From positions 1 to 64,000 of the forward strand of contig BDDD01001468.1 in NCBI GenBank assembly GCA_001972305.1: 64,000 nucleotides of DNA. The letters are read 5' to 3'. Below the pieces are notes generated by a model. It was not told the DNA's origin. It searched no databases and saw only the letters and a list, made by a program, of their open reading frames with translations. The stretch comes from Cephalotus follicularis (Eukaryota > Streptophyta > Magnoliopsida > Oxalidales > Cephalotaceae). The translations under genes and the position numbers were made by a program. Each line of letters begins with the position of its first letter. Position 1 is the stretch's first letter. Of the stretch, positions 8,249-64,000 are shown one piece after another.

Positions 8249-9910
8249 TTATCTATCTTTTTTTCCCCCATTTATATGCTTGTGTCATTTTGGTCTTGCT
8301 ATTTGATTTTTGGCACCTAAGTTAGAGTGTGTTTTGATTTTACATGTTCTTGACACATTCTTGCTTATCCATCTGGGTGCCTAACTTGGGGTGTTGAAAG
8401 TGCTGTTTATATATTCAGACGTCAAATATGTGGTTCTCTAGATCATTGTCTTTATTTTAGCTTACCTAGTACCCATTAATGTCAATTTTTATAGGTTGGA
8501 TGGGATGAATCAACAGCCGGTGAACGGCCAAGCCGAGTCTCGATTTGGGAAATTGAACCTGTTGTAACGCCTTTCTACATATGCCCACCACCATTTTTCA
8601 GACCCAAGTTTCCAAAGCAACCGGGCATGCCAGGTAAATCAGTTTCACTGATTTTGTAACTTCCATAACGTGTATTGTGTAAAATGATGCTATCCAAAAA
8701 AGCTGCTGTTAATATATTTATTCTGAGATTTGTGGACAAAGTCTTCTTTAGTACCTGCTTAGCCATAATTCTGGCTTATTCAAACTAAATTAACGGTATG
8801 TCTGACTAGACAGGTTTAATGAACATCAGTTTACCTCTGTGTGGTTATGCCAAAGAGTTATTAAGAACCTGATTACAATATTTCAAAAGTAAAATTTTTC
8901 ATCCATATCATATACTTCATATCATAATTTAATCATGATAAATTCGCTCTATATTCTCTCCCCCTGCCTTGTCGCCGTTTACTAAACATGATTCTAGGAA
9001 TGTTTTTCTGTGAAAATATTCAAATTTACATACTACTTATACATCAGATGTGGAAACGAAGAACTTTTCTTGTTCACTTTCTCTCACTTTCATTTTAAAA
9101 TAGAAACAATACAATAGACTTTACTATCTTCTTCCATATGTGACATGTTTTGGTTAGCTGAAACTTAAACAATCTTCCATGATAGGACTTATGATATTAT
9201 TCATGGAAGAAGACCATGACCAATCTGTTATGTGACTTTCAACTATCTGCTGTCACACTCCTGGGATTTATAGTCCACTAAGACTGTAGTCTCCTCTTTT
9301 ACAGCCAATGGCTTAACTAATCTAGCATAGATCTGCTTGGTGCCTTTTTCTTGTTATTGATCTCTAGTGGCGCTTTTGCAGATGACGAGTCTGACATTGA
9401 GAATGCTTTTAAGAGAGCCATGCCGTGGCTTGGAGATGATTTTGGCATGAAAGATTCTCCAAGTTCAGTCTTCCCAGGTTTGAGTTTAGTTCAATGGATG
9501 AGCATGCAACAGAATAATCAGTTTCCAGCTGCTCAGTCAGGATTTTTCCCATCTATGGTTTCTTCCACTGCCCTGCATAGTAATGTTAGCACTGATGATC
9601 CATCCAAGCTATTGAATTTTCAATCCCCTGCGTTACCTACTCCAAATCTCCACTTTAACAAAACAAATGCCCAAAATCAGGTCAGCCAGTTGCCACAGCC
9701 ACCTATGGGATGGCCTCAGCAGCATCTGCAACAATTATTGCAGAATCCTGTAAACCAACGGCAGCAGCATCACCATCAACAACAGCATCGACAGCAACCA
9801 CCACAACCACAGCAGCAGCAACAACAATTACATCAACTGCCACAACCACAGGTTCAGCAACAGCTACAGCCTCAACCCCAGCCCCAGCCCCAGCAGCAGC
9901 AGCAGCAACT

Positions 9911-9944
<34 letters not shown>

Positions 9945-11940
9945 CCACTAGCCCGACAATCACCACAACAACCACTACAGCAGCAGCAACTATTTCAACC
10001 AGCTTCTGCAAGTAATGGTGTAGTTGCACCTAACCAGATGGCAAGTCAAAATCTGCAGCAACCAGTTATGTACTCCCAGCTTCAGCAACAGCAGATGTTG
10101 ACAAGCAATACCCAATCCCAGCAAAGCGTTCCCCCTGCTAATAAGAGTTCGTACCCCCTAATGTCACTACCACAAGACTCTCAGTTTCAGCAACAAATGG
10201 AACATCAACCTAGCCTCTTACAGAGGCAGCAGCAGCAGGCACAGTTGCAACATTCCCCACTGCATTTGTTACAACAGAGCTTCTCACAGAGGGCACAGCA
10301 GCAACCACAGGTGCAGCAATTATCACAGCAGGGCCTCTCAGAGCAGCAGCTTCAATTACAGTTGCTGCAGAAATTGCAGCAACAACAGCAGCAGCAATTG
10401 CTCTCCCCAGTGGGCTCACTTTTGCAGCCTCAGCTGCTACAACAACAACAGGGCCTTCAGCAAAGCCAGCCATTAGAACAGCTGCCTCTGTCTCAGAATC
10501 ATCAGCAACCACTCAGCAGCAACAACTTCTCAACCTCAGCACTAGGAAAATCACAACAGTTTACTGTGAGCCAGCCGCAGAGCTTGCAGAAACCACCTAT
10601 AGCAATCAGGGCACAATCTGGTATCACAGATGGAGATGCTCCATCATGTTCAACCTCACCTTCTTCTAATAATTGCCAGGTACCACCATCAAACTTCCTT
10701 ACTAGAAACCAACAAGGGCCAGCCATATTGATGGGAGATTCAGTAGTTGAACCTGCAAATAATCTGGTTCAAGAGCTTCATAGCAAGTCTGATGTCCGGA
10801 TCAAACATGAGTTGACCAGCTCAAAAGGACCCGACCAACTGAAATTCAAAGGTACTGTGACTGATCAACTGGAAGCATCCTCATCTGTAACATCATATTG
10901 TCTGGATACTGGCAATATTCAACAAAGTTTTTCTCTCCCGCCATTTTGTTTGGATGGTGATGTCCAGTCAAATTCTCGGAATAATCTTCCTTTTGCATCT
11001 AATATTGATGGATTGGCACCTGACACTTTGTTGTCAAGGGGATATGACTCTCAAAAAGATCTTCAAAACTTGCTTTCTAATTATGGTGGCACTCCTAGAG
11101 ACATTGAGACAGAGTTGTCAACTGCTGGAATAAGCTCTCAGTCATTTGGGGTGCCAAACGTGCCTTTCAAACCTGGGTGCTCAACTGATGGTGCCATCAA
11201 TGACAACGGGATTTTGAGCAATGGATGGTGGGCCAATCAGACTCAGCGTATGCGAACATATACAAAGGTTTGTTCTTTCACTTGTTACTCCTGTATGTCA
11301 TATCAGGACAAGTTGCAATTCCTTTATCTTTTGCTGAACTTTCTGGTTAGCATGATTTATTCTGTCTATTTGTATCTGGCTCCAAAACCTCTGGGATTTC
11401 TCTTCAAAACATGCTTATGCCATTTTAAATGACTAAACTGCTTCAATCTCTCAAAGGTTCAAAAGCGTGGCTCTGTTGGAAGATCTATTGATGTCACCCG
11501 TTACAAAGGATACGACGAGCTCAGGCATGATCTGGCACGCATGTTCGGAATTGAAGGGCAGCTAGAAGATCCACAAAGTTCTGACTGGAAACTAGTCTAT
11601 GTGGATCATGAAAATGATATACTACTCGTTGGTGACGATCCTTGGGAGTAAGTTGGGAGTGTGTGTGTATGTGTGTTTGTGTGTGTGCGCACGAGCACTC
11701 GAGGAGAGGTTTCTTCTGCTTTATTTGCTGACGAGCATTCCTCTTTTAATTGCTTGCAGGGAGTTCGTAACCTGTGTCCAGAGCATAAAGATTCTGTCAT
11801 CTGCTGAAGTACAGCAGATGAGCTTGGATGGAAATCTAGGTAACGTGCCAGTTCCCAATCAAGCTTGTAGTGGGACTGATAGTGGAAACGCATGGAGAGG
11901 ACACTACGATGATAACTCAGCAGCCTCGTTTAATCGATGA
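4554..11940 (+). CDS. ARF19: Auxin response factor, ARF19/ARF7 type (transcriptional activator)
   Basis: A nuclear transcription factor that binds auxin response elements and is held in check by Aux/IAA proteins. I place coding exons at 4554-4596, 5493-5605, 5696-5791, 6132-6188, 6301-6456, 6560-6644, 7371-7461, 7540-7704, 7805-8000, 8495-8633, 9382-11267, 11457-11647 and 11760-11940. All introns are GT-AG, and the sum is 3399 nt (1132 aa) in frame. The start MKAPSNGFL matches the family N-terminus. Domains: B3 DNA-binding domain about residues 125-230 ([20 protein letters not shown]), auxin-response (dimerisation) domain about 250-335, glutamine-rich middle region about 480-755, and C-terminal PB1 domain from about 1010. 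The PB1 domain has the basic KRGSVGR face and the acidic [15 protein letters not shown] face. The glutamine-rich middle marks an activator. The length fits ARF19/ARF7 of other plants, and the details around [10 protein letters not shown] and the C-terminus favour ARF19. Nothing is broken. Confidence 0.97.
8206..8246 (+). repeat. (TC)n microsatellite in intron 9 of the ARF gene
   Basis: About 20 uninterrupted TC units within the intron 8001..8494. It is probably length-variable between individuals. Confidence 0.9.
9717..10530 (+). repeat. CAG/CAA-rich tract coding the glutamine-rich activation region of ARF19
   Basis: Imperfect trinucleotide repeats mixing CAG, CAA and CAC codons inside ARF exon 11. 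The longest glutamine runs lie around 9896..9944 and 10376..10396. Long open frames in other phases here (poly-Ala/Thr on +, poly-Val/Ala on -) are by-products of the triplet bias. Confidence 0.9.
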
Positions 11941-16580: not shown

Positions 16581-17073
16581 TATTGATGCGAAAATCAATT
16601 TCACAGCAGTTCTCCACGTGTGGAGGTTTAATTTACTGGAAAAAGCGTTGGATGCTCCGAAGAAGGTACCGAACCTTGGTTCTTCGATCTTCCCTGCACA
16701 CAAGAAGAAAAAGATATCGAAAGTTCAGGAGTTTTCACTCCCGAGGACACTCCGATACTTAAGTCAGTTGATAACAAAAAAGACAGTATGTGTATAATAA
16801 ATTGCTCAACCCCCTCACTATATTTTTTTGGGGTATTTATAACCTTACTTGCCCATTATTTTTCTCGAACCGTTTAGGTACCGAAAGAGAAAATTATGAG
16901 AGTCCCTTAAAGAAAATATTGTCTTCCTTTTTTAAGGAAGGATTGTCGTCCCTTTTTGTGGAAAGAATATCTCTCCCTTTATGACCACAATCTTGGGTGT
17001 TTTACCCGTGTGATTTATTACCCCATGTGACACGTGTCAGTGCCTTATTCATACATATTGTTTTCCCATATCA
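16581..17073 (-). repeat. 3' LTR of element E1
   Basis: 493 bp. In - orientation it begins TGATATGGGAAAAC and ends near CATCAATA (TG...CA-like, last bases decayed). It aligns throughout with 28228..28722, sharing blocks such as GAGAAAATTATGAGAGTC and GACACGTGTCAGTGCC. Confidence 0.88.
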
Positions 17074-17554
17074 TATGCCCACATTGGTCCTCCTTTTCTG
17101 TACTTTGCAGAGGATGAGGAGCATTTGTGAGGTGGTCTTACTTTGAGCAGACCTTTGATGCTTAATTAAGCCTATTTTTGACTTATGGGCTTTGCTTTGT
17201 GGCCCAGCTCTGGTTTTAATCTATGCGTGGCAAAACGAGCACGATTCCCGCCTACGTCTTTTCGTTTCCCGAGTATGATTGATTGGTTGATGTAGGCCGT
17301 TTGATCCCGCAGAGATCGTATGGTCTGGAATCAAACTAAAGCTCTTTAAATCGCTTCTTCTTCTCGGAGAAGTTTCCTTCTAATCGTCTTCAAATTACAA
17401 AGCTCTTTTTTCAACAATGCTCTTCGATCTTCCAGACTTTTAATCAACTTTCTTCAAATCTTCTCTTGCGAAATCTCAGGTAAGTCGCTCTTTGTTATTT
17501 GCTTTCGCAAACTGATTTAGGTGTCTCTTTGGGTTTTTCTGGCTTTTCACCTTA

Positions 17555-17561
<7 letters not shown>

Positions 17562-17601
<40 letters not shown>
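17562..17601 (+). repeat. (CT)n microsatellite in the leader of the antisense accessory gene
   Basis: About 20 CT units directly before the TTTTTAG acceptor that precedes the ATG at 17616. It serves as the pyrimidine tract of the leader intron. Confidence 0.85.
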
Positions 17602-17603
<2 letters not shown>

Positions 17604-17615
17604 ACGAATTTTTAG

Positions 17616-19992
17616 ATGGCTAGAGTCAAGCAAACCTTCAGACCAACTACTCCAGCAGAAATCCGTCGCTTGGTTGAGGCAGTGACAGTTTTAGAGCGTC
17701 CTCTTGGCTCGGAGGATGCCATGGATGCCATCGTAGTGGGTGGTCCTGAAGTCGCCTCTTCTGAAGCTGGGACTCAACTCTTCAGAACCCACTTCGATAG
17801 GAGCATACTTCTTCGTGAGAAAGTGGAGAAACTATCATATTGCTTCCCTAGGAGCTTAACAATCTTCATTCCTCGAGATCTCAAGGAGGCCACAGAGAGC
17901 AGACCTGGCCTTTTTATGGTTTTCGAGGACGCTCTTACACATGGTTTGAGACTTCTGTTACACCCCTTTGCTGTTGTGGTTTTGGGGAGTTTCCAAATTC
18001 ATCATTCACTCCTTCAAGCGCAATCACGAAGCTTTATAATGGGCTTCTTAGTGAAATGCTTGGAAGTAGATGTGACAACTATGGTGAGGCTCTTCAAGGA
18101 GTTTCATGTCCTCACTGTGTCTCCTGGTAAGTGCGGGTACTACTTCAAGTCCAGCACTGGTCTGACCAAGAAGCTGCTGGTGGATCCTATGAATTCCATC
18201 AAGAACTGGAGGGAGAGGTACTTCCTTGTTAAGAATCTCACTAGCTTTATTCCCTCCCAGTGGTGTGATTCGTTGGATACCCAGCGCCTCAACCAGAGAT
18301 CAAATTTGTCTTTGGCGGAGGAAGCAAACCTCACAAAGTTGTTAGCGCTGGAGCCGGAAGAGGTTAATTTTACCATAATCGAGGATCGTTTGCCCGGCGT
18401 TGGGTTGAGCATGTCCCGAGGTCGTAGAAACGCCTTGGATGATGAAGAGGAGATCCCGGTGGGAATTAAGAGAGTGAGAGTTAAAGAGAGTAGAGAAGAA
18501 ACCGGAGCTACGCCTGGTAACGAGGGGGAAAGTTGTATTAAGCTTTTGTCTCCTCCTATGCTTCTAATTTCTTTGTTCTGTTCATTCCCTATTTCTTGTA
18601 GTTCATGTTCTTAACTTTGTTTTCCTTGTCGTCTGCTAGCAATGGCTTCCCAGCGTCCTTTTGCAGAGGTGCTAAAGGTTATTAGGGAGGAGCAAGGCAG
18701 TGCTGAAGATGCAAGGCAGAGAGACTTGAGGCAAGTCGCCTAGGGGGCGAAGAAAAGAGCTGAGAAAGAGGCTGTCAAAAAGAAGCCTGACCATGTCAAG
18801 CGAGTTGCTGAGGACTTGCCCCTCTCCTACTTTACCCATTCCTCTACCAAAGAAACAAAGAGGAGGAAAAAGTAGCGAAGGCTCTTCTCGCGGCCAAGAA
18901 GCTATTTCCCCTGCTGTGAGTTCTCGACACCCTATCCGCCTTGGTGTGCATAGGGACATCGACAAGATGGAAGAAGAGCTCGAGGCATTGGGCAACTCTA
19001 GTCTGGACTTGAATAAACCAGGAGCGCCTTTCGAGCTCAGCAGGCTTTGCATGCTTCCCTCAGAGCTGCGGGCACGAGATGGTTGGACCCACGAGCAGCT
19101 CTAGAATCACTGTGCTCGGAGCTGTATTAAGGTAGGTGACTTTTCCCTATTTTTCCTTTTCAATACCTTCTTTGAACTTCTCTTTACCCAGGTCCTTCAC
19201 TTTTGGCATGTTCTGAACGACATCCACTTAATGGTGGATAACTCAAAGGTGGATCAAGAGCTTATCAACCAGCTACGCCAAGAGAATGCGAATCTCAAAG
19301 GTGCGGCTGATTCGGACCATGCTCGGTTGGAGGAAGTTCTTGCGACCCAAGAGTCGATTTTGGAAGAAAAGAGGCAGGCCCTTGAGGCTTTGGCCAAGGA
19401 GAAAGAGGACAAAGAGGTGGTCATCAGGAGTCATATGAGAACCCGTGACTTGCTACAGGCTGTTGATGAAATGTTCTCTAGGTAAAAAAAGAGGGAAGCT
19501 ACTCGGGTTCAAGAGGCGGTTGACAAAGCTCTTGCGGAATTTAAAGCTTCAACCGAATTTCAAGGTGTTTTGGCTGGGGCCGTGGATGACTATAAGGCTT
19601 CCCCAGATTTTGAGGAGGAAGTCTTCAAGGAGTTTACAAGATACTTTCGTCGAGACTTCTACACCTGCAGCAACTGGGTGTCTGCTCTTCACCCTGAGGT
19701 TCCTCTGACCCCTATTATATATTGTGAGTCGGCTGGGGACTTCGACTTTCTCCCTGAAGGAATAGAGGCTGAGAAGGAGAAAGTTCGCCTTTCCCTAGTG
19801 GAAGAAACTCGCCTTGCCCTGGAGAATGAAGAGTTACAGAGGGCAGAGCTCCGAGATCCAATTATTTCATCCTCTGCCGAAGATGTTGAAGAGCTTCCTT
19901 CCTCTACACCTGATGCCCTTTTCTCTGAGCCTGCCTCAGAAGCTATTGCTGCTTCGCTGCATGAGGATGTTCAGAACCATGCTAATTTTTAG
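17616..19992 (+). pseudogene. Antisense accessory gene of element E1 (decayed), N-terminus MARVKQTFRP
   Basis: Lies opposite to gag-pol, between integrase and the 3' LTR. A leader intron is likely (CTCAG|GTAAGT near 17480 to TTTTTAG|ATG). Inferred coding exons: 17616-18516, 18640-19131 and 19192-19992, with GT-AG borders (CCTG|GTAACG, TTAAG|GTAGGT). Exon 2 has an in-frame TAG at 18739 and then a frameshift. Exon 3 has a stop near 19482 before the frame continues to 19992. The protein would have an N-terminal globular part of about 300 residues, a basic linker, and a long acidic coiled-coil-like C-terminus (ENANLKG..., many Glu/Lys/Leu heptads). No enzyme motif is recognised. The first residues match those at 63958, where they equal the histone H3 tail (see findings). 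Function unknown. Confidence 0.75.
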
Positions 19993-20127
19993 CTTTTATT
20001 ATGCATTGTACCTTTTTTGTAATTCCTACTCTGGTAATGTAATAAAACATAATTTTAGCTTCATTTGAGCTTTATAATTCCTTTACGAAAATTTATTTTA
20101 GTCTATCGTATTTATAGATATCTTTTA

Positions 20128-20978
20128 TACTGGTCTGATATTTTTCAGACTAGGTCACCTGAGCTTTTTAGCCCACATAGGGCACTTGTATCAAAGCCCT
20201 CAGCCAATGAGACTTGATCTTCTCGAGTTCTTATGTTATTCACAGATCGAGATTTGTTTATGGTCTGACAAGTTCTTATGGGTTTACAGACCAGAATTTT
20301 GTACTGGTCTGATATTCTTCAGACCAGGTGGTCTGAGCTTTCTATCCCCCGTGGGGGCACTTGTATCAAAGCCCTTAGTCCAAGTTCTTAAGTGTTTCGC
20401 AGATCAAGCTACGATATAGATCTAGTCTGAAAAGTTCTTATGGGTCATACTAGTCTGATGTTTTCAGACCGGGTCAACTGGGCTTTTTATCCCCCATGGG
20501 GACACCTTGTATCAAAGCGCTCAACCAACAGTTGATCTTTGCGAGTTCTTATGTGTTCACAGACCAAGTTACGCTTTGATTGCTCCTTTGAGAGTTTTTT
20601 ATTGTCGAAGTGTTAAAGGGTGTTCATTGAACATCCTTCTCTAACTGCTCCCTTAGGAGTCTTCTCTGATTGCTCCCTTATGAGTCTTTTATTGTTGAAG
20701 TGTTGAAGGGTGTTCATTAAACACCATTCTCTTCCCTTAGGAGTCTTCTCCAATTGCTCCATTAGGAGTTTTTTATTGTTGAAGTGTTGAAGGGTGTTCA
20801 TTGAACATCCTTCTCTGAATGCTCCCTTAGGAGTCTTTTATAAGCTTGTTAAAACTCTAGTCTGCTTGAGACCTTAGTCTACTCGGGACCTTGGTCTACT
20901 GCTTGAGACCTTAGTCTTCTTGGGACCGTAGTCTGCTCGGGACCTTAGTCTGCTTGGGACCTTAGTCTGATTGCTCCC
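20128..20978. repeat. Tandem subrepeats between integrase end and antisense gene of E1
   Basis: Two arrays. Array 1: about three copies of a 140-175 bp unit starting TACTGGTCTGATATT at 20128, 20302 and 20448, each with GCACTTGTATCAAAGC. Array 2 (about 20579..20840): a unit with TGAAGGGTGTTCATTGAACA and CTCCCTTAGGAGTC, three full copies plus partial ones. A run of GGGACCTTAGTCTGCTT-like short repeats follows (20860..20978). Tat-clade elements often carry such arrays here. Confidence 0.75.
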
Positions 20979-28227: not shown

Positions 28228-28722
28228 TGTTGATGCGAAAATCAACTTTACAACAGTACTCCACGTGTGAAGGTTTAATTTGCTGGAAAAAGCGTTGGAT
28301 GCTCTGAAGAAGGTACCGAACATTGGTTCTCCGATCTTCCCTGCACACAAGAAGAAGAAGATATCGAAAGTCCAGGAGTTTTCACTTTCGGGGACCCTCC
28401 GATACTTAAGTTAGTTGATAACAAAGAAGACAGTAGGTGTATAATAAATTGCTCGACACCGTCACTGTATTTTTTAGGGTATTTATAGTCTTACCTATCC
28501 ATAATTTTTCCTGAACCGTTTAGATCCTGAAAGAGAAAATTATGAGAGTCCTTTAAAGGAAATATTGTCTTCCCTTTTTAAGGAAGGATTGTAGTCCCTT
28601 TTTGTGAAAAAAAATATCTCTCATTTTATGACCACAATCCTGAGTGTTTTACCCGTGTGATTTATTATCTTATGTGACACGTGTCAGTGCCTTATTAATA
28701 CATGAATTTTTCTCATATATCA
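28228..28722 (-). repeat. 5' LTR of element E1
   Basis: 495 bp, in - orientation TGATATATGAGAAA... to CATCAACA. It is the partner of 16581..17073. Differences include a 2-bp insertion next to the outer end and scattered substitutions. Confidence 0.88.
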
Positions 28723-50023: not shown

Positions 50024-51112
50024 TCACCCAGCTATGCCACGACCCATTCTGATCTTTTCTAAAGTTTCCTCCACTAACTCAGCCCCGAGTAAATGTCGCT
50101 CCCCGACCTCGTCCCAACAAACAGGAGATCTGCATTTCCTCCCATACAGCGCTTCAAACGGTGCCATGCCGATACTGGAATGATATATGTTATTATAAGA
50201 GAATTCTATCAAAGGAATGTGATCCTCCCATGTACCAGCAAAGTCAATAACGCAAGCCCGTAGCATATCCTCCAAGGTCTGGATGGTATGCTCAGACTGC
50301 CCATCGGTCTGAGGGTGAAAGGCAGTACTCATGTTCAGCTTTGTCCCGAAAGCTGTCTGAAATCTCTTCCAGAAGTTGAAAGTGAAGATGACATCTCTAT
50401 CACATACGATGCTGACTGGAACACCGTGTAGCCTCACTATCTCCTTCACATATAAACGAGCTAGCTTGCTCGCAGAATCAGTAACGTGTGTAGGCAGAAA
50501 GTGCACTGATTTGGTGAGTCTATCTACAATAACCCACACGGCGTTGTGACGGTTCTGAGTCAGAGGAAAACCCTAAACAAAATCCATCGCAACATGTTCC
50601 CATTTCCACTCTGGAATTGGTAAAGGTTGTAGCAGTCCTGCCGGTCTCTGGTGCTCGGCCTTAACTGTCTGGCAAGTCAAACACCTTGTCACATACTCGA
50701 CGATCTCTCGTTTCATGCCAGGCCACCAGTAATTCTTCTTCATGTCTTGGTACATTTTTGTGCTACCCGGGTGAATGCTGTACTGAGATCTATGAGCCCC
50801 GTAAAGTAACTCACTCTTCAACCCAGGTTCATTCGGAAGACACACATGTCCCTGAAATCTTAAGACACCATCGACATGTACCCAAAAATCAGACTCCGAG
50901 TCCAGATTCTCTCGAATCTTTTGCAATTCTGGATCGTGTGCTTGAGCGTTCTTTATTTCATCAAAAAAAATTGGCTGTACTATCATGCTAGCCATAAAGA
51001 CTCCAGGTGACTGACTAAACGGAAACCACTCTTGGAAGTTTTCTAACATCTTCCATTGCGACACCATCGAACTGGCAACCATAGCCTTGCGACTCAAGGC
51101 ATCAGCGACCAC
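50024..51112 (-). pseudogene. Integrase of element E3, 3'-truncated
   Basis: 51112..50573 holds the end of RNase H (DALSRK) and the zinc-binding domain (SIHPGSTKMYQDMKKNYWWP, TRCLTCQ). It is broken by a stop after MDFV. 50539..50024 holds the catalytic core: [14 protein letters not shown], and the Glu in [17 protein letters not shown]. Conserved [15 protein letters not shown] follows. Similarity ends at LEKIR (about 50045); the last few codons before the stop at 50024 belong to other DNA. Confidence 0.9.
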
Positions 51113-51178
51113 ATTCGCTTGCCCCGGGTGGTACTGAACACTGCAATCATAATCGTTAAAGAATTCTACCCATCTTCG

Positions 51179-52609
51179 TTACCTCATGTTCAGTGTATCT
51201 TGACAAAACAGGTACCTCAAACTCTTATGATCTGTAAAGATCTCAAACTGTGCCCCATAAAGATAGTGCCTCCACTTCTGAAGGGTGAAGATAATAGCTG
51301 CAAGTTCAAGGTCATGTGTCGGGTAGTTTTCTTCATATGGCTTTAGTTTCCTGGAAGCATAAGCGATCACTCTTCCTCGCTGCATCAGTACGCAACCTAA
51401 GCCCTTACCCGATGCATCATTGTAGACTGAAAAGCCCTCATTGCCATCAGGTAATGTCAAAATAAGAGCAGAAACTAACCGATCCTTCAACTCACGGAAA
51501 CTAGCTTCACAATCTTCGTCCCAGACAAATAAGGTCTTCTTCTAGGTCAGTCTAGTCAAGGGCACGGCTATCTTTGAAAAGTTCTGGATAAACCTCCTGC
51601 AGTACCCCATCAAGCCAAGAAAACTACGTACCTTCGTCACATTCTTCAGTTGTGGCCAGTCTCGCACCACTTCAGTTTTGGACGGATCCACCGTCAAACC
51701 TTCCCCAGATAAGATGTGACCGAGAAAGATCACATGATCAAGCCATAATTCACACTTGCCAAACTTGGCGTACAACCGATGTTCTCTGAGAACTTGCAAT
51801 ACTAGCCTCAGATGATGAGTGTGCTCCTCCTCACTCCTTGAATATACCAGTATGTCATCAATAAACACCACGATAAACTGATCCAGGTATGGCTGGAATA
51901 CATCATTCATCAATGACATGAAAGCTGCGGGCGCATTAGTAACATCGAACGGCATCACCAAGAATTCGTAATGACCATACCATGTCCGAAAGGCAGTCTT
52001 CTCAATGTCTCCTTCCCTTACTCTCAGTTGGTGATAACCCGATCTCAAATCGAGCTTGAAAAACACCCTTGATCCTTGCAACTGGTCAAACAACTCCTCA
52101 ATGTGGGGTAAAGGATACTTGTTCTTGATAGTTGCCTTATTCAACATTCTGTAGTCGATGTAGAGCCTCATCGACCCATCTTTCTTATTGACAAATAACA
52201 CCGGTGCACCCCACAGAGAAACACTGGATCTAACAAAACCCTTATCAATCAGGTCTTTTAACTGTAACTTCAGCTCTCGCAACTCGGCAGGAGCCATCCG
52301 ATAAGGTGATTTAGAGATAGGAGCCGTTCCAGGAACAAGATCAATAACGAACTCCATACTCCTCTTCAGTGGCAAAGATCCCAAGTCGTCAGGAAATACA
52401 TCCAGAAATTCACACACCACTGGAATCTCCTCCATGCTCAACCCCTTTTCTTTCCTCCGATCAATCACATAAGCCAGGTATCCCTCGCATCCTTTCTCGA
52501 ATAAAGGATATGATCGGTGTCCAGAACCCTTTGTCTCCCTTGAACTGGAATGTCGTTCCGTCGGGTAGACAAAAATCCACAGTTTTATTATAACAATCCA
52601 TGTGAGCAC
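51179..52609 (-). pseudogene. Reverse transcriptase and RNase H of element E3
   Basis: 52609..51542 contains the [47 protein letters not shown] and the catalytic [13 protein letters not shown] at about 51542 interrupts it. 51490..51179 continues with RNase H ([38 protein letters not shown]), ending at another in-frame stop. The active-site residues remain, so decay is moderate. Confidence 0.92.
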
Positions 52610-52859
52610 GGTATGCTGAAAGCCAATCCATCCTCAGTATAACATCGAAGTCACGGATAGGCAGTACTATCAAATCTGCATATAAAGAAATGCCTACCAT
52701 AGACATCTCACAACTCATATATATCGAGTCAATGTACATAGAAGTACCAGTTGGTGTACTCACATCAAGCATATATGACATGCAGTCAGGGGTGACATCT
52801 AAGCAAGATGCAAAACGTGCAGATATAAAAGAATGCGATGCTCCAGAATCCATCAACAC
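52461..52859 (-). pseudogene. Aspartic protease of element E3
   Basis: The catalytic motif MDSGASHSFIS is at the start, with conserved [14 protein letters not shown] further on. It is in a different frame from the RT that follows, so a frameshift lies between about 52500 and 52560. Confidence 0.88.
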
Positions 52860-53959
52860 TCTAGCAGAAAAACCATATATATATACAGAGTACCTCCAAC
52901 CACGGAAGTCGACTCTGGAACCTCTGTCTGAACAAGTACAAAAACTCTACCTTTTGCGACACCCTTGCCGGTGTCCTTCCTCTGTGACAGTCTCACTACC
53001 GCACCACTACTACTTCCTGGCCCAATAGCTGCTGTAGCTGAACTCTTAGGACAGTCTTTCACCAAATGACCAGGTGTCTCGCACCTCAAGCACCAGCCAT
53101 TGAACCTCCAACAATCTTTCTGTTGGTGTCCCGTGCGACCACAATAGTAACAACCTCCGGATCTAACATTACTCCCCTGGCTGGGAGAACCATGTGAAGC
53201 TGTCTGCTGAGACTTGTTCTTGGATGACTTCATCAGAGAACCACCATCTTGCCATTTTGAAGATGCTGGTCTTGATTGTGTAGGACTCTGTTTATTCTGC
53301 TGTGCGCGAGCTCTCTCAGCCCAGTCTTCACTGGATATGGTCTCCAGTAATCTTGCTTTCTATGCAACCTCCACAAAAGTCCCCAGTTCCATAGCCCTAA
53401 TTCTTGATCAAAGATCCGGCCGCAGACCTCTCAGGAACCTCCGTATCTTCTTCACTTCATCAGCTGCCAGATAGGGTGAATGTCTGGCTAGCTCCATGAA
53501 CCATGCTTGATACTCTGTCACCGTCATCTCTCCCTGTCGTAACTCCAAGAGCTCCGCCTCCCATCGCTCTTGTTCAATCCATGGAATATAGGTCTCCAAG
53601 AACTCTGTCTGGAATCTGCCCCAAGTGCTGTCAAGCCTCTGAGATTCCCACTTTGCTTTGACCATTTCCCACCAATGAGTGGCCTCACCCCATAGACGGT
53701 ACACAGCAAACTTCAATTTTTGATTGTCAGTACAGTCCATCACTTCAAAGATTTTCTCCAAATCCTGCAGCCATGTTTCAGCAACGGTGGCATCAAGTTC
53801 CCCCCAGAAAGTGGGTGGATTCTGCCTCATGAACCTTTCAATGTCTCTCCCAAACTGGTTTCCCTCCTCTCCCGGGCAATGGTCAGGAGCTCTATGTTGC
53901 GGCCGAGCTTGCGCGTAGTACTGGCGCATCTCCTCTGCATTAGCCATATTAAAGGCCAT
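52853..53959 (-). pseudogene. gag of element E3 with two zinc knuckles
   Basis: 53959..53408 encodes the capsid region (AETWLQDLEKIFEVM, WWEMVKAKWE, RFLRGLRPDL) and ends in a stop. The same region continues to 53233..52853 with two CCHC knuckles, CYYCGRTGHQQKDC and CLRCETPGHLVKDC. Two knuckles are less common than one in gypsy gag proteins. Confidence 0.88.
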
Positions 53960-62293: not shown

Positions 62294-62462
62294 GAAACAT
62301 TAACTTTAAAGTTCAACGTCAACAAGCTAACGCAATAACGACGTATAAATAAACAAAAGTTTTAACTAAGCAATTAGGGATATATCAACAGTGCATAGCA
62401 AAACTAACCTAATTTAAAAACTTATTTCCTAAACTATATCGTTTTGAACTTATTTTAAAAAC

Positions 62463-63338
62463 TGTTGATACATAAATTCTCCCCTCAACAGTATCCCACG
62501 TGTAAGGGCTTGATTTGTTTAGGGAAGCGTAGCTTATGTGCTCCGAAATGAAGGTAGAAGATGATCGTAAATGTTTTCCCTGCACAGAAGAGCAAACACG
62601 TTGAAGGTCCAGGAGGATGTTCTCCCGGGGACACTCCGACGCTCAAGTTAGGCCTTTGCACAGAGAAAACTAGGTTCTTTTAGGAGTAAGAATGACTGAC
62701 CTTTGTTCTGACTGTTGAACTAGTATTTATAGTGTAGGAGTGTAACTGTCTGAGCGTGAAATACGGAGGTGATAGCTGTCCCCTAAAGAAATGCCGAGGA
62801 TATCGGGATTTTCTTTATCTCCACCTGATTTGTCGCTACTTTCCTTGCAGGTTGTGTATTATATCTCAACTTTCATATCTGGAAAAGGTAAATCACTGAA
62901 AAGTAGGCTGATTTTATGGTCTTGTCCTGCCGAGGACAAGGTGAGATAGGTTCTCTTGTTATTTACCTACTTCAAGGTCTTCAACTTCCAAAACTTCTTC
63001 AAGGGCTGATGCCTGAAGCATTAAGTCCTCTGTCAAGCTGCCGAGGACAAGGTCTCCTACAGCGCAGCTGGGGAGGATTCCCCTGGTGTAGGTCCTCTGT
63101 ACTATGTTGGAAGGAAGATCCTCTGCATTTGTACCGATGAGGGTGGGTCTTACAATGCCACTAAATAGGGGTTCCTCGGACCTGGTTCCGAGGAGGATGT
63201 ATTCGTCAACTCCTCCTGGCAGGGATTGATAGCTTCCTCTGACCAGTATCCATATAAACTTTAAAAACCCCTGGACACTTGGTTATGTTCGTGGAAGACA
63301 CGTGTCGTCCTTGGTATAAACTAATTTTTCCCATATCA
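62463..63338 (-). repeat. 3' LTR of element E2
   Basis: 876 bp; in - orientation TGATATGGGAAAA... to GTATCAACA. It resembles the LTR at 482..1559 (reverse complement), which is about 200 bp longer. It carries CCGAGGACAAGG-type repeats (near 62928 and 63040) and the hairpin CCTCGGACCTGGTTCCGAGG near 63175. Confidence 0.85.
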
Positions 63339-63744: not shown

Positions 63745-63752
63745 TATAAAAG
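63745..63752 (+). promoter_or_regulatory. TATA box of the antisense accessory gene of element E2
   Basis: TATAAAAG, 206 bp before the ATG at 63958. Box and upstream flank (GGAGGGCCAGGAT) are shared with E0. A leader intron seems to follow (TTTG|GTAAGT near 63880 to GACATAG|ATG at 63957), as in E1. Confidence 0.65.
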
Positions 63753-63957
63753 GATATCTACTTCACAAAGCAAACCTTTCACTCCTTCAAACTCTCATCT
63801 TCATCTTGTTGCTGTGAGATACTGAGATTTACAGTGCCCTCAAAACTCCATCTCCCTACCATTCTTTCATCAAGATCTTTGGTAAGTTGCCAGTCTTCTT
63901 GTTGTTCTAAGTTGAATCTAGGACTTCTCTAGCTTCTTCTTTTTTCATCTGACATAG

Positions 63958-64000
63958 ATGGCTAGAACTAAACAAACTGCTAGGCCTTCTCCTCCCTTAG
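63958..64000 (+). CDS. Antisense accessory gene of element E2 (start only), N-terminus equal to the histone H3 tail
   Basis: Only 14 codons lie in the window: MARTKQTARPSPPL. It is homologous in position, leader structure and sequence to the accessory gene at 17616 of E1 (MARVKQTFRPTTP). Residues 2-9 equal histone H3 residues 1-8 (ARTKQTAR), and Ser at H3 position 10 also matches; H3 Lys9 is replaced by Pro. The start is supported by the acceptor-like GACATAG directly before the ATG and by the related copy. The full protein is unknown; by analogy with E1 it should run for several hundred residues and end in a coiled coil. Confidence 0.7.
   Translation, partial: MARTKQTARPSPPL

Follow-up and report, generated by a model that had tools for sequence, protein, structure and literature searches.

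In Cephalotus follicularis, a Ty3/gypsy retrotransposon of Retand type encodes an antisense TRP28 accessory protein that begins, immediately after its initiator Met, with a tract resembling the N-terminal tail of histone H3. The tract is ARTKQTAR in some groups of copies and mostly ARVKQT(S/C)R in another. Constraint measured in the latter group (E1-type copies) appears to act on the amino acids and not on the DNA, indicating that the ARTKQTAR-like tract is selectively maintained. Mimicry of the K4 end of H3, with putative binding by host proteins, is the leading explanation for the conserved tract, and we give it about an even chance of being correct. We analyzed bases 1–64000 (hereafter, the window) of a contig that is 232 kb long and belongs to an assembly of 1.58 Gb, and read the remainder of the element that crosses its end from the contig continuation.

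H3-like starts of two antisense accessory genes

The element at the end of the window, E2, is a Ty3/gypsy element whose gag-pol lies on the contig minus strand and extends past the window end; the ATG at 63958 is antisense to gag-pol. The first 14 codons of the E2 antisense TRP28 ORF (63958–64000, plus strand) are ATG GCT AGA ACT AAA CAA ACT GCT AGG CCT TCT CCT CCC TTA, that is, MARTKQTARPSPPL. Hence, Met is followed by residues 1–8 of H3 (ARTKQTAR), with P replacing K9, S10 in common, and divergence beyond (M-ARTKQTAR-PSPPL). This reading confirms the initial annotation of the window, which had the antisense gene of E2 opening with M-ARTKQTAR-PS. Its description of the H3 identity as "lacking only Lys9" is loose, since only S10 matches past R8.

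We compared the residues following each of the 2433 testable ATGs on both strands of the window with ARTKQTAR. A match of 8/8 was observed once, for E2 at 63958, and a match of 6/8 once, for the antisense ORF of a second element, E1, at 17616; the next best match was 4/8, observed three times. Therefore, the top two H3-like starts across the 64 kb both belong to antisense accessory genes. Hence, the H3-identical N-terminal tract expected of a mimic of the H3 K4 end is complete in E2 (8/8), with E1 reaching only 6/8.

E2 has the layout of a Retand element (Tat clade, Ty3/gypsy), as assigned from its domains and ORF arrangement. Its 3' LTR (62460–63338, minus strand) is 94.8% identical to a partner LTR at contig positions 72996–73875. 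A single piece of E2 contains, in order, RT_RNaseH (2–66), RVT_3 (118–228) and Integrase_H2C2 (324–374) matches. We read RVT_3 as the second RNase H-like (aRH) domain, and on that reading a second RNase H-like domain lies between RNase H and integrase, fitting the order that Neumann et al., 2019 describe (PMC6317226, as far as the available portion of that paper goes) for Ogre and Retand, both of which have aRH. The antisense ORF in frame with 63958 matches Transposase_28 (PF04195; E 4.2e-8; 33.7 bits versus a cut-off of 26.2) at contig positions 64108–64581, between pol and the 3' LTR. The E2 continuation thus bears out the proposal that the ATG at 63958 opens the antisense accessory ORF of a Tat-clade (Retand-type) element. 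Examination of the full copy to the right of the window, as the initial annotation had suggested, revealed the Retand layout and an in-frame TRP28 region, but in a decayed copy: there is an in-frame stop at codon 50 (contig 64105–64107), with TRP28 resuming afterwards in the same frame. This copy of E2 is therefore a pseudogene.

Two further sequences relate to E2. Downstream of TRP28, at contig positions 65465–66358 (L009:1565–2458), there is another antisense ORF with a weak GAGA_bind match (E 5.7e-4, below the cut-off), which is possibly a later exon of the same antisense protein. At the other end of the window, positions 70–1560 contain a fragmentary LTR and adjoining sequence, in minus orientation to E2 and related to it at ~79–88% in pieces; the antisense start of this relative would fall just beyond the left end of the window.

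The E1 antisense ORF (17616–18614, plus strand; M-ARVKQTFRP...) encodes a TRP28-like protein of 332 residues, with a PF04195 match (E 3.7e-4; 21.1 bits) that falls below the curated cut-off of 26.2. The nearest protein to it is P0001, a 60% identical protein of Cephalotus follicularis named Transposase_28 domain-containing protein. The AlphaFold model of the E1 protein has a pLDDT of 37.8. The E1 3' LTR lies at 16583–17071 and the 5' LTR at 28230–28718 (both minus strand; 89% identical), and pieces of reverse transcriptase and integrase mark E1 pol on the minus strand. Between E1 pol and the E1 antisense ORFs, at 20123–20969, there are direct repeats of a kind reported for the POL-3'LTR region of Retand elements.

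Pfam analysis of the E1 ORF and the E2 TRP28 piece matched only Transposase_28 (PF04195), and gave no indication of a histone fold. Because the histone domain is absent from the TRP28 ORFs, we rule out that the antisense ORFs are histone genes. Elsewhere in the window, positions 50024–53959 (minus strand) are a further Ty3/gypsy-like region that matches Retrotrans_gag, Ty3_capsid and RVT_1, and positions 9351–11432 contain a glutamine-rich ORF that we take to resemble the middle of a plant auxin response factor.

Recurrence of the tract and constraint on its codons

We searched the whole genome with a degenerate MARTKQTARP pattern, which fixes P after R8 and also admits Ser at H3 position 8. 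The pattern matched 187 places (104 forward, 83 reverse), and a reversed control pattern matched none. We read 50 of these copies, comprising the first 30 loci listed of the 187 and 20 more, mostly picked for unusual codons. MARTKQTAR was spelt in 48 of the 50, using 24 different 27-base DNA spellings, and MARTKQTAS in the other two. By eye and with a simple pattern, we split the copies into an E2 type (40 of 50, 21 of them with SPPLEVEPLA), whose members resemble one another, and a third group (10 of 50, six with GSQPIS) that includes L015 and L085 among its distinct members. The start peptide is the same in both groups although the residues after position 10 differ. Comparing the third group with the E2 type gave a pS of 0.99 and a pN of 0.01 for codons 2–9, versus 0.67 and 0.67 for codons 11–18, with L081, which belongs with the third group, counted as E2 type and with stop codons skipped. 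The low pN is built into this comparison because both sets were collected by the motif; its informative part is that synonymous sites are saturated despite the common peptide.

We also collected relatives of E1 with the whole E1 protein, independently of the motif. Of 15189 candidates only 121 were scored, so the E1-type sample consists of the copies most like E1. Of these 121 we examined 48, counting E1 itself: 8 loci, 20 that followed in rank, and 20 taken from lower down. We calculated pN/pS from all 48, skipping stop and gap codons. Many of these copies are decayed; the ATG is kept in 42 of 48, and the full A-R-x-K-Q-T-x-R is intact in 23 of 48. They start mostly MARVKQT(S/C)R(P/Q). Relative to H3, the E1 type retains A1, R2, K4, Q5, T6 and R8, without T3 and A7: V occupies the T3 position in all 47 readable copies, and S (30 of 48) or C (10 of 48) the A7 position, while P (28) or Q (12) stands at the K9 position in 40 of 48. 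Since T3 and A7 are missing, exact identity to H3 is not universal, and selection on the E1 type does not demand an exact copy of H3.

For codons 2–9 of the 48 E1-type copies, pN/pS was 0.22 (bootstrap 0.17–0.28). By contrast, the bootstrap median for codons 11–50 was 0.68 (0.61–0.75), and the order of the two regions was reversed in none of 500 bootstrap resamples. Codons 2–9 had the second lowest pN/pS of 86 eight-codon windows. The difference was also observed with seven representatives of <80% identity (0.18 for codons 2–9 versus 0.56 for codons 11–50). Values from the E1-type versus E2-type comparison were 0.29 for codons 2–9 and 1.01 for codons 11–18, with stop codons skipped and L005, L006, L040, L048, L050 and L062 excluded from the E1 set. 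In steps of ten codons, pN/pS of the E1 type was 0.31 for codons 2–10, 0.71 for codons 11–20, and between 0.28 and 0.41 for codons 51–80, indicating that the N-terminus is as constrained as the stretch into the conserved domain, and not more so. Synonymous variation in the first codons is no lower than elsewhere (pS of 0.41 for codons 2–10 versus 0.35 for codons 11–90), which argues that a DNA signal is not the cause and rules out constraint at the DNA level, from a splice or start context, as the sole explanation.

The initial annotation had proposed comparing conservation of the tract with that of the residues following it. For the E1-type copies of this one genome, the comparison favors the tract (0.22 versus 0.68), and the outcome named there as contrary, a lack of conservation of the first ten residues among homologous copies, did not occur in this set. 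A tract conserved beyond its surroundings, as expected of an H3 mimic, is therefore present in the E1-type copies (48 of the 121 listed). The initial annotation had also allowed for chance similarity to H3. We reject pure chance as the source of the likeness, based on the scan of 2433 ATGs, the genome-wide pattern counts with their reversed control of zero, and the pN/pS contrast in the E1 type.

Predicted antisense promoter, leader intron and start codon

Upstream of the E2 start codon we predict a probable antisense promoter, with a TATA box at 63745, and a leader exon without an upstream ATG (together 63745–63881, plus strand), followed by a probable 5'UTR intron (63882–63957, plus strand) with a GTAAG donor and an AG that abuts the ATG. 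A probable E1 5'UTR intron at 17480–17615 (plus strand) likewise ends with an AG abutting the ATG; the predicted E1 leader contains one upstream ATG. In E2 and the 30 listed motif loci, the distance from a TATA-like box to the ATG is 204 to 241 bases; in E1 it is 271. Of the 30 loci, 26 have a GTAAG or GTGAG donor located 69 to 108 bases upstream of the start codon (76 in E2, 136 in E1). Assuming that transcription begins 30 bases past the TATA-like box, the predicted leader exon measures between 101 and 112 nt at 23 of the 30 loci (107 in E2, 105 in E1). An AG directly precedes the ATG in 22 of the 30 loci and, by type, in 34 of 40 E2-type copies, 37 of 42 E1-type copies, and 2 of 10 third-group copies. 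The recurring TATA-like box, leader, GT donor and AG-ATG junction make it plausible that the ATG at 63958 is the real start codon; for the third group, the prediction of a spliced leader is weak. The layout predicted for E1 and E2 agrees with the report, in the accessible part of PMC7264820, of an antisense promoter that lies upstream of gene23 in maize Grande.

All 13 proteins returned by the protein searches were from Cephalotus follicularis, and none of the 13 models begins with the tract. Four TRP28 models among them (P0002, P0004, P0005 and P0013) start, by eye, at the same later Met, equivalent to residue 21 of L010; this may reflect either a choice made in building the gene models or a real loss of the tract. 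Motif scans of viral contigs gave no matches, TRP28 scans of viral contigs and genome contigs gave no confirmed relative, and a PDB sequence search with 25 residues gave no matches.

Explanations for the tract and comparison with known systems

Starting from the observed sequence, its recurrence, the constraint in E1-type copies, and the ORF layout, we propose the following. Transcription from the antisense promoter would yield a spliced mRNA in which the start codon opens exon 2. Because the residue at position 2 is Ala, the initiator Met is expected to be removed, which would expose an H3-like tail with a free Ala end. N-terminal Ala is often acetylated in plants, and acetylation would block many H3 readers. 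A host reader or modifier of the H3 K4 end would dock on the free A-R-x-K-Q-T tail. Such docking would bring the host protein to the element, whose DNA TRP28 may bind, or, alternatively, would keep it off H3; either way, the element would be less silenced. We speculate that loss of K9 (P or Q) would separate binding at the K4 end from K9 silencing marks. In its full form, the proposal is that Retand elements, from an antisense promoter of their own, encode a protein associated with DNA that, once processed, presents a false H3 tail without K9 at its N-terminus; that this tail engages host proteins of the H3K4 end (e.g. LSD1-like, SAWADEE or ATXR5/6-type modules), so that silencing is blocked or redirected; and that it has been kept for this across diverged lineages. 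We advance this form tentatively, as somewhat short of an even chance. Counting against mimicry are the lack of T3 and A7 in the E1 type, the equal constraint on parts of the TRP28 region, the pseudogene state of E2, the absence of the tract from all 13 Cephalotus models, and the collection of the E2-type and third-group copies by the motif itself.

A credible but doubtful alternative is that the tract is kept for another job, such as nuclear localisation, nucleic-acid binding, or a protein contact within the element machinery, with the likeness to H3 arising by convergence on a short basic sequence. The tract is indeed basic, E1-type copies retain only A, R, K, Q, T and R of the H3 tract, and the Grande antisense protein is reported to be nuclear (PMC7264820, part of the text). 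However, the exact eight-residue identity is found in two groups, at position 2 precisely as in H3, and the conserved Q5 and T6 exceed the needs of a basic segment.

Capture of host sequence is improbable as an explanation. Here, an ancestral Retand element would have acquired the 5' part of an H3 gene from its host, with promoter, leader intron and first codons, leaving the tract as a remnant, whether or not it acts as H3. Plant H3.3 genes with a leader intron exist, and the promoter, the leader intron and the AG abutting the ATG recur in copies, all in keeping with capture. The H3 likeness nevertheless ends after R8, with K9 replaced by P or Q in 40 of 48 E1-type copies and by P in the motif copies (as the pattern required), and capture alone leaves the constraint unexplained. 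Still less probable is hitchhiking, in which a chance H3-like start without function was amplified with one family. Retrotransposon copies have recent common ancestors, E2-type copies are alike, and a famous motif was chosen post hoc; but hitchhiking is already largely contradicted by the contrast of 0.22 versus 0.68 in copies found independently of the motif, by a start common to E1 and E2, and by the saturated synonymous difference between the third group and the E2 type (pS 0.99, motif-conditioned). Imitation of centromeric H3 (CENH3) in place of canonical H3 is hardly credible. Plant CENH3 also begins ARTK, but Q5, T6 and R8 fit canonical H3 better than the usual CENH3 starts.

Returning to mimicry of the H3 K4 end, a constrained H3(1–8)-like start offers a hypothesis that is concrete and cheap: the transposon would encode a histone mimic that acts on the very chromatin machinery responsible for its silencing. 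If this is true, we know of no earlier such mimic from a transposable element of plants.

Antisense TRP28 ORFs have been described before, as a characteristic feature of Retand elements (Vicient, 2025, PMC11963269), and examples of H3 mimicry exist among host factors and viruses (PMC12612597; PMC12937675). The available portions of the Retand literature give these elements the features of E2, namely an antisense ORF with PF04195 between pol and the 3' LTR, and a second RNase H-like domain between RNase H and integrase, but do not describe a conserved H3-like start (PMC11963269; PMC6317226); the words "histone", "N-terminal" and "intron" are absent from the main text of PMC11963269. None of the papers listed by full-text searches of the open-access literature links an antisense TRP28 ORF to H3 mimicry in its title or the opening of its abstract. 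According to the accessible text of PMC11963269 and PMC7264820, no function is yet known for Retand antisense proteins. PMC7264820 also reports nuclear localisation and a promoter of its own for GENE23, the antisense protein of Grande, another plant element.

Histone H3 itself has residues 1–8 after Met in common with the E2 ORF, whereas the histone domain is absent from the E2 TRP28 piece. The SNAG domain sits at the N-terminus and only loosely resembles H3. As described in the part of PMC12612597 available, the short SNAG peptide of Snail1 and GFI1 imitates the tail of H3 and recruits LSD1. SNAG belongs to host transcription factors, whereas E2 residues 1–8 are identical to H3. Influenza A NS1 is, according to an available portion of PMC12937675, a protein of a genetic parasite that resembles the amino-terminal tail of H3. 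NS1 uses its C-terminus for this (H3N2 virus); by contrast, the E2 type carries the likeness at its N-terminus, in a plant retrotransposon and in many copies.
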